From Phycisphaerae bacterium (GTDB taxonomy: Bacteria > Planctomycetota > Phycisphaerae > Sedimentisphaerales > Anaerobacaceae): a stretch of 33,183 nt of DNA. Each line of letters begins with the position of its first letter. Positions within the stretch are counted from its first letter, which is position 1. The position numbers were made by a program, and so were the translations under genes. Where the stretch lies: assembly GCA_011776225.1 (NCBI GenBank), contig JAABXR010000129.1, forward strand, positions 1 to 33,183, given 5' to 3'. Under the pieces are notes generated by a model. The model saw only the letters and a list, made by a program, of their open reading frames with translations. It did no database searches and was not told the origin of the DNA. Shown here piece by piece: positions 22,330 through 25,004 of the stretch.

Positions 22330-23136
22330 ATGTCGAAGAAAACAATCCTTTTCTTTATAGTGGTAAACGTAACTATCTTTAGCCTGGCCGTGATATACAT
22401 GGCTTATGCCGGGGCACAGACCGGAAGCTTGGGGGCGTCTGGCCCATTGGATTTGGGTTACGAGCCGGGAGAATTACTTGTGCGCTTTGCTCCAAAGCCA
22501 GATGGAACACAGCGTACGCCGAGTGAATGTAACGCGATTTTAACTGCGATTGAAGGAGGAGTTATCGAGCAGTCTTATAAGCTTGTGCCTGGTTTGACGC
22601 TGGTAAAACTTCCTGAGAATGTTAATGTTGAAAACGCCCTTGTACTATTCAAGAAAACTGGTGGGATTTTATATGCTAATCCCAACTACTTAGTTACCAC
22701 AGTTTCAACGTTTCCCGATGATCCGCAATTTGGTAACCTCTGGGGTATGCATAATACGGGCCAATTTGGTGGGACGGAGAACGCAGATATTAATGCGCCG
22801 GAGGCATGGGATATCGAGACAGACGCCAGCGATATTATTGTCGCTGTCATTGACTCAGGAGTTGATTACGAGCATGAGGACTTGGCAGCTAACATGTGGA
22901 TAAATCAAGGTGAAGACCATCCACCTTTAGGCGTAGTAGGACCGGAAGATTTTGACGGAATTAACGATGATGGGAACTATGATCCTGAAGGCAATCCTCT
23001 TATAGATGACATTTATGGTTACGATTTTTGCAGAAGGGGCCAGGGATCAGGGAAAAAATTCAGTATTTCTACCGGAGGCCGCGATTCGCATCGTACAGTA
23101 TCACGTAGGCCGGATCCCTGCCATATAAATAATTAA
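22330..23136 (+). pseudogene. Truncated S8 (subtilisin-family) peptidase
   Basis: Inhibitor-like prodomain, then DINAPEAWDIETDASDIIVAVIDSGVDYEHEDL...IDDIYGYDFC; His and Ser catalytic motifs absent, unrelated tail RRGQGSGKKFS.... Confidence 0.85.
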
Positions 23137-23375
23137 ATAAGACATCTGGGTCCCTGCCTAAAGCATGCAGGGATGCAGGCCGGAGTGAGGAAAGGAAAAG
23201 TAAAAATCAAAATGTAAAATGCAAAATTGTGGAGGTCCTTCGGGCGGATTTTTATTGAAAAAAATAGAATGCGAACCGCAGGTAGAAATGCTGTTTACAT
23301 TGTGAAATACGTAATCCTTACCATATTTTCAGATAAAACCTTCTTGTGAATAATATAAGAAAAGGTTACTATATA

Positions 23376-23576
23376 GTCGGCTGAGAGAAAACAGCCGGAC
23401 AATTGAATACACTGAGACTTCAAGCGTTTCACCTCAAACCGCGAGTTTTCAATCGGGAACGTTTGGGAGGCTCGGTGCTCTTTGTATGTCTGCAGAGAGC
23501 ACCGCCTGTCTTTCATGTCCCGAAAGGCTTTCGCGGGCCTGAGGTGAGCGTGATAGCGGCGGTGCTCTTTTTTTTT
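23376..23576 (+). ncRNA. Candidate structured RNA / attenuator-like leader
   Basis: Nested complementary segments forming a rod-like fold, ending in GGCGGTGCTCT plus T9 that can alternatively pair with 23496-23506. Confidence 0.6.
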
Positions 23577-23611
23577 AAAAGTATGCCGCAGAAAGGGATA
23601 GGAGCAAATAA

Positions 23612-23818
23612 ATGGGGAAAAAGAAAAAGTCAGTGAAACAGCCGGAACCAACCGCAGCGGCCAGCCGGTTGAAATACAAACAAATAACCGTTGAGTTTGC
23701 GTTTACCGACGGAGGGACAGAAACGGTCACTTTTTATAGTCCGGTGGATTGTTTCCATTATATTGAGAGGAGAGTTTGCGAACAATATACCAATAGCGTC
23801 CGAGTTGAATTGTTCTGA
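23612..23818 (+). CDS. Small hypothetical protein (68 aa) with a Lys-rich N-terminus
   Basis: GGAG Shine-Dalgarno at 23601-23604, 7 nt before ATG; MGKKKKSVKQPEPTAAASRLKYKQITVEFAFTDGGTETVTFYSPVDCFHYIERRVCEQYTNSVRVELF. Confidence 0.65.
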   Translation: MGKKKKSVKQPEPTAAASRLKYKQITVEFAFTDGGTETVTFYSPVDCFHYIERRVCEQYTNSVRVELF

Positions 23819-23873: not shown

Positions 23874-25004
23874 CTATAATCCCTGGTCGAGGGCTGAGCG
23901 GATGATTTGGGCCCGCAGTGCGTCCCTGTGCGTGGCATCGAGGGTTTTTCCATAGTTTAACTGCAGATGCGCGGGGAGAGTGAGCATAAAGAGTCGGTTT
24001 ATGGTGGCGATGGAAAGGCCGTCGCTTTTATCTTTACGGCCGGATTGTTTGCTGAGCGTGCCGAGGGTGTCAATGGCGGGACTGGAAGCGCCCATGGACT
24101 CGCGCATATTCAGGCCCAGCCGCAAATGACTCAGAAGGAACAAGGCCTCCTGCGAACTTATCAGATGAGCATTGCGCAACAGCGCAACGGCGCGAGAAAT
24201 CTTATCATCAAGGAGGTCTATCTGCTCGGAGAGCAACTGACTTCTGGCGGCGTTTTCATATTCGACAATTTCGGGGATGATGGAATTTTCAAACTGCTTT
24301 ATGATATCGGCCTCCGAGACGCCGAGTGTTACCTGATTCGATATCTGATAAAAATCACCCGCGGCCTCTGTGCCCTCGCCAAAAAGCCCCCTGACGGCAA
24401 GGCTCATATCCTTTGCGGCATTGAAGAACTTCTCAATCTGGTCTGTTATCTTCAACGCCGGCAGATGCAGCATAACGGAGACGCGAATCGCCGTGCCCAG
24501 GTTTGTCGGACATGCGGTGAGGTATCCATATCGAGGGCTGAAGGCGAAGCTTACCTTTTTCTCAATCATATCGTCGATGTTATTTATCTGCTCGGCACAT
24601 TTTGATAACTGGAGGCCGCCTTTTAGGACCTGGATTCGCAGATGGTCCTCCTCGTTAATCATCGCGGTGAAAAATTCCTTCTGCGCGATAACCACTCCCC
24701 GCGGCCCTTTACCGAAGGCGTGATGGCGGCTGATAAGGTGTCTTTCCATCAGGAAATGCCTGTTTAGAGGAGGGGCCTTGTCGACACTGATATAAAAGAT
24801 TTTATCCCCAAGGTCCAGGGACATCAGGACATCTCTGAGCATTTTTAGTATTTCAGATTTTTCTTCCGTTGAGCATCTGTTCAGGAATTTGTACCCTTCC
24901 AGATTTCTTGCCAGCCGAATCCTGGAGGATATAACAATATCGGCCAAAGGCCCGGAACCGCTGAACCATTCGTTTATGTCGCTACTTAGATCGGTCAGCT
25001 TCAT
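23874..25004 (-). CDS. mcsB: Protein arginine kinase McsB (ATP:guanido phosphotransferase family)
   Basis: IVISSRIRLARNLEGYKF; ISRHHAFGKGPRGVVI; EEDHLRIQVLKGG; GYLTACPTNLGTAIRVSVMLHLPAL. Confidence 0.96.
   Translation of the reverse strand: MKLTDLSSDINEWFSGSGPLADIVISSRIRLARNLEGYKFLNRCSTEEKSEILKMLRDVLMSLDLGDKIFYISVDKAPPLNRHFLMERHLISRHHAFGKGPRGVVIAQKEFFTAMINEEDHLRIQVLKGGLQLSKCAEQINNIDDMIEKKVSFAFSPRYGYLTACPTNLGTAIRVSVMLHLPALKITDQIEKFFNAAKDMSLAVRGLFGEGTEAAGDFYQISNQVTLGVSEADIIKQFENSIIPEIVEYENAARSQLLSEQIDLLDDKISRAVALLRNAHLISSQEALFLLSHLRLGLNMRESMGASSPAIDTLGTLSKQSGRKDKSDGLSIATINRLFMLTLPAHLQLNYGKTLDATHRDALRAQIIRSALDQGL

Follow-up and report, generated by a model that had tools for sequence, protein, structure and literature searches.

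A probable orphan, riboswitch-like transcription attenuator in the 5′ leaders of Phycisphaerae genes

Transcription-attenuating riboswitches (the cis-regulatory classes of Rfam) are the closest described systems to the element reported here, which shares with them its place in the 5′ leader, a conserved structured core, an antiterminator and terminator with a U-run, and many unrelated target genes per genome. It differs from known riboswitches in having no match in Rfam 15 and in its core, a long-range rod made from two hairpins with complementary loops. The c-di-GMP-I riboswitch (GEMM-I, RF01051) often controls surface and signalling genes and is likewise a cis element, but ours is unrelated to it in sequence and structure and gives no match; among 61 of these genomes, just 2 carried that riboswitch, too few to inform on co-regulation. 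Attenuators of the trp type follow the same partner-swapping logic, in which segments pair 1:2, 2:3 and 3:4, whereas here no leader peptide was seen and there are additional covarying helices (P1–P3, P5 and P6). With 6S RNA (RF00013) the resemblance is in the rod shape only: where a 6S RNA would stand free in one or two copies per genome, there are up to 11 here, linked in cis to different genes, with a partner-swapping terminator and without an RF00013 match.

The locus lies in a 33,183 nt stretch of DNA (hereafter the window) from contig JAABXR010000129.1 of a draft Phycisphaerae genome that is 55% complete (GCA_011776225.1). The host's place in this planctomycete class is borne out by a near-identical protein in a Phycisphaerae MAG. 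The leader copy occupies positions 23376–23576 of the forward strand and is a member of a structured-RNA family. A preliminary description made from the sequence had named a series of nested stems here, and inspection found every one of them in place. Against dinucleotide shuffles, folding gave z = -5.45 for 23376–23611 and z = -5.0 for 23420–23576, with 0/200 shuffles equally stable. Screening the window and 17 loci against Rfam 15 at the gathering threshold returned only tRNAs, and four copies, including divergent ones, produced only chance-level matches at E ≤ 10. The family is uncatalogued in Rfam 15 and comes from Phycisphaerae and some relatives. In the literature searched we found no report on PEP-CTERM with a riboswitch, on a riboswitch or RNA motif in Phycisphaerae or Planctomycetota, or on a kissing loop with a four-way junction that matches the element. 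A phage or plasmid origin of the window's copy was rejected, as it had no match among phage and plasmid sequences.

A DNA search of 99 related genomes recovered further copies, several per genome, as a unit that begins with the 5′ hairpin and extends through the T-run. Twenty-two cores, with an apical insertion (~55–100 nt) excised from the longer copies, were aligned (A1) to build a covariance model (R1), which matched copies in 78 of the 161 genomes of the window's order, with a maximum of 11 per genome. An alignment of 53 more distant, shorter copies (A4) gave a second model (R2), whose matches extended, more patchily, to other orders of the class Phycisphaerae and, beyond that class, to three genomes elsewhere in the phylum. 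These searches covered the phylum Planctomycetota, mostly as draft genomes, with strict filters whenever more than 40 genomes were searched. A conserved aptamer-like core was found across many targets in alignments A1, A4 and A5. Some leaders are clustered, at spacings between a few hundred and roughly two thousand nt (L099, L103, L167, L168, L019); in genome G076, L099 and L103 are both upstream of similar secreted-protein genes. Many copies lie close to a contig end, no more than a few hundred bases away (L093, L106, L116, L140, L143, L150 and those on G061 contigs), which suggests repetitive or strain-variable surroundings.

Two folds emerge from the alignments. Fold I is a long-range rod of P1, P2, P3 with an extension, and P4, the last of which sequesters the 5′ arm of the terminator. 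Fold II is made up of a pair of local hairpins, P9 on the 5′ side and, on the 3′ side, an intrinsic terminator of P7, P5 and P6 followed by the U-run. Their parts in the window are as follows, with the share of alignment cells paired; the figures for P1–P4, here and below, are biased in favour of these stems because they were base pairs in the search model.

23344–23372, + strand: putative sigma-70-type promoter, TTGTGA-17-TACTAT, read from the sequence (a promoter pattern scan did no better than chance)
23378–23397, + strand: H1, optional 5′ hairpin CGGCTGagagaaaaCAGCCG; many copies have a comparable hairpin ahead of the conserved GACAATT
23398–23409, + strand: conserved 5′ segment GACAATTGAATA, found again at this position in most homologues
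23410–23416, + strand: segment 1, CACTGAG, the 5′ strand of P9a (99.6% paired, modest covariation)
23424–23428, + strand: GCGTT, the 5′ strand of P9b, with partner AACGT at 23458–23462 (91.7% paired in A4)
23430–23435 with 23541–23546, + strand: P1 strands (99.5% paired in A4, 7/7 pairs with double changes)
23436–23448, + strand: P8 hairpin AAAC-CGCGA-GTTT, which presents the 5′ strand of P2 as its loop (81.8% paired, the pairs being for the most part invariant A-U)
23439–23444 with 23531–23536, + strand: P2 strands CCGCGA/TCGCGG (99.5% paired, 6/7 pairs with double changes)
23454–23458 with 23518–23522, + strand: P3 strands (89.0% paired with the extension, 10/12 pairs with double changes)
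23471–23484, + strand: segment 2 (arm A), CTCGGTGCTCTTTG, partner of segment 1 (P9a) or segment 3 (P4)
23493–23506, + strand: segment 3 (arm A′), partner of arm A (P4, 99.8%) or of the terminator arm (P7, 97.7%)
23513–23518 with 23548–23553, + strand: P5 strands TCATGT/GCGTGA (98.5% paired in A1, 93.9% in A4, with double changes)
23526–23539, + strand: P6 hairpin GGC..GCC, its loop containing the 3′ strand of P2 (100% paired)
23558–23576, + strand: segment 4 (arm A″), GGCGGTGCTC, then T9; 3′ arm of the intrinsic terminator (P7 covariation)
23600–23604, + strand: Shine-Dalgarno AGGAG, from the sequence
23612–23818, + strand: downstream gene for a 68-aa protein without a confident Pfam family

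Compensatory changes among the homologues support both folds, in keeping with the mutually exclusive hairpins of the preliminary description. Fold I is paired in 95.1% of cells in A4 (53 copies, 465 double-change cells) and 96.3% in A1 (22 copies, 123 double-change cells), compared with 77% in shuffles and 31–47% when slid; in A4 the values are 77.1% and, for slides of 1–3 columns, 31–46%. For the terminator of fold II the corresponding values are 97.1% and 48 double-change cells (A4) and 98.3% and 22 (A1), with covariation of 0.31 in A1 and 0.30 in A4 against 0.22 and 0/500 shuffles as high. The shuffling nulls used for both folds ignore kinship among the copies. P9 pairs CACUG and GCGUU with CGGUG and AACGC (95.7% paired, 20 double-change cells). 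P5, P6, P7 and P9 were absent from the base pairs of the search model, so their covariation was not made by the search. Support for P8 is weaker because its pairs are nearly invariant; the third pair of P6 varies between C-G, U-A, G-C and A-U. Segment 1 could form an alternative local hairpin, H2, and as only around half of the copies have it, H2 was rejected as a universal element.

The folds draw on the same strands and therefore cannot both be complete together: CGGUG pairs with GCACCG (P4) or CACUG (P9), GAGCACCG pairs with CGGUGCUC either of arm A (P4) or of the tail (P7), and the strands of P1 and P3 fall within the hairpins of fold II. The proposed competition between the apical stem and a hairpin running into the T-run (AGAGCACCGCC/GGCGGTGCTCT) is thus present and, with P4 and P7 paired as listed across 53 homologues, conserved. 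Its terminator stem is real but had been drawn too short, as it continues into P5 and encloses P6, and a conserved pairing of CACTGAG with CTCGGTG (23471–23477) that ties up the 5′ arm of the apical stem had been overlooked. GTTTT/AAGGC, another of the named pairings, exists in the window but is not a conserved element; homologues have in its place local AAAC..GUUU and GGC..GCC hairpins flanking the strands of the CCGCGA/TCGCGG helix. Similarly, the unpaired stretches facing each other below the apical stem are there, but rather than a 6S-like bubble they hold the conserved AACGT and CATGT, which are re-paired in the other fold. At least 5 T are found in the 8 nt directly after the terminator stem in 47/53 copies. 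Beyond the order, P4/P7 are changed wholesale in sequence, to GGGUGCUGU/ACAGCACCC in L151 and GGGAGUC/GGCUCCC in L158 for example, and the pairing between segment 3 and the tail is kept in most copies. In the long copies L023, L024, L034, L039, L040, L041 and L043, an apical insertion contributes further hairpins as well as a second A′ arm, such that P4 and the terminator arm need not share one strand.

The same alignments bear on the idea that the copies are a mobile repeat (a MITE, REP-like or integron-like site) whose palindromes merely mimic an RNA switch. The multiplicity of copies, the position of several near draft contig ends and the unrelated REP-like repeats adjoining the leader in the window would fit; however, copies within one genome diverge while compensatory changes preserve every stem in both folds, G-U pairs fit a + strand transcript only and the orientation towards genes is fixed, all of which makes this explanation highly improbable. 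Attenuation through translation of a leader peptide, as in trp, would account for the order of pairings, which is that of the classical leader-peptide attenuators. Inspection of the alignments, however, showed a 5′ segment without a conserved start codon, Shine-Dalgarno or frame, indels of every length occur between copies, and biosynthetic operons are not among the targets, leaving this mechanism a very slim chance.

Next to the leader, 75/111 copies have a same-strand ORF (≥50 codons, with a Shine-Dalgarno) 15–180 nt past the element's end, compared with 12/111 for the mirror-image control of a divergent ORF upstream and 13% for random positions. Signal peptides are present in 42/66 (64%) of the downstream proteins versus 49/244 (20%; p = 4.5e-11) and PEP-CTERM-like tails in 12/60 versus 5/244 (p = 3.6e-6), both as called by a simple home-made classifier. 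Pfam and NCBIfam concur, assigning PEP-CTERM to 17 and 15 of 78 downstream proteins, respectively, with beta-helix proteins and EcoRI-type and other DNA methylases among the other targets. Outlying copies precede genes for a response regulator, a possible chemoreceptor and a LuxR-type regulator. EcoRI-type adenine methylase genes carry the leader in different genomes (L108, L129, L144).

The window's own gene is an incidental partner, contrary to the link first drawn between the leader and the 68-aa protein. Relatives of this protein, for which Pfam offered only DUF3330 (E = 0.007, below that family's cut-off), occur in the sister genome G001 and, distantly, in two other genomes only; the leader is absent from the two relatives in G017, and other copies precede unrelated genes. 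Directly upstream of the leader, 23030–23230 holds REP-like palindromic repeats (GGCCAGGGATCAGGG/GGCCGGATCCCTGCC and neighbours), with 21 more partial matches in the window's draft genome. An ORF at 22330–23136 encodes a fervidolysin-type protease prodomain and ends inside a REP-like repeat; it looks like a subtilase gene shortened by that repeat. Convergent with the leader's gene is a gene with an ATP:guanido phosphotransferase domain (23877–25004, – strand), whose product is arginine/creatine kinase-like and possibly McsB.

This gene context weighs on the alternative of a free-standing regulatory sRNA, 6S-like or other, with its own promoter and terminator and only incidental neighbours. A rod-like sRNA recalling 6S had been suggested, and the rod shape, the promoter-like sequence upstream and the terminator at the 3′ end agree with it, as do the convergent or distant neighbours of some copies. 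For about a third of the copies, moreover, no ORF with a Shine-Dalgarno is evident on the same strand within 180 nt, and some copies may thus stand free. Against this, two thirds of copies sit 15–180 nt before a Shine-Dalgarno gene, 5–6 times the controls, the targets are functionally biased, and a conserved partner-swapping terminator would be superfluous in a free sRNA. The 6S version falls with the many copies per genome, their cis linkage to different genes and a covariance-model search of the window with RF00013, which gave no match even at E ≤ 10; an sRNA of any kind we consider improbable.

Taken together, these data point to a transcription attenuator that acts in cis from the 5′ leader of the gene behind it, an orphan of riboswitch-like character, and we hold this to be probable. 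A terminator and an antiterminator that exclude each other are both conserved, a U-run follows, and the copies are upstream of and co-directional with genes, as the preliminary reading of a riboswitch or attenuator had proposed. The order of partners, 1:2 (P9), 2:3 (P4) and 3:4 (P7), is that of a transcription attenuator. In the long-range fold, segment 2 would capture segment 3, with P4 acting as the antiterminator held inside the P1/P2/P3 rod, and RNA polymerase would read into the gene (presumably the ON state). In the local hairpins, segment 1 would capture segment 2, leaving segment 3 to pair with segment 4, and transcription would stop, probably at the U-run (OFF). The P2 strands double as the loops of local hairpins P8 and P6, and P2 may be either part of a continuous rod or a loop-loop (kissing) contact; as the two loops are mutually complementary, such a contact could nucleate the long-range fold. 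Predicted energies in the window are -89.6 kcal/mol for fold I and -79.2 kcal/mol for fold II (a difference of ~10). With fold I predicted to be the more stable, termination would depend on kinetic trapping or an effector, failing which the window's copy would read through.

The balance between the folds would be set by an effector, most likely a small molecule and possibly a protein. A small molecule is the first guess because the conserved core is elaborate and the targets are unrelated. The same attenuator might instead be run by an RNA-binding protein or a processive antitermination factor, to which the sequence-conserved loops and flanks lend some weight and a set of surface-protein genes would be equally suited; the core, however, is complex and highly conserved, its long-range and loop-loop pairings recall ligand-binding RNAs, and we regard control by a protein as rather unlikely. 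More specifically, and tentatively, since we put it somewhat short of an even chance, the attenuator may be a new riboswitch class in which a ligand, possibly a signalling molecule, controls surface display in planctomycetes with the loop-loop contact as sensor. Two local hairpins with complementary loops would then convert into one long-range rod, and the display so controlled would be that of PEP-CTERM and other exported proteins.

Few riboswitch-like families combine many targets with the lack of a catalogue entry, and covariation in both folds is strong enough here for direct in vitro testing. The copies usually lie shortly ahead of genes for exported surface proteins, where the element appears to choose between stopping and continuing transcription. 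The targets (exported, PEP-CTERM and related surface proteins, a few DNA methylases and, in outlying lineages, signalling proteins) suggest a global cell-surface signal. Regulation in this phylum is little known and, if this reading is true, the identity of the effector would name a signal that governs the cell surface.
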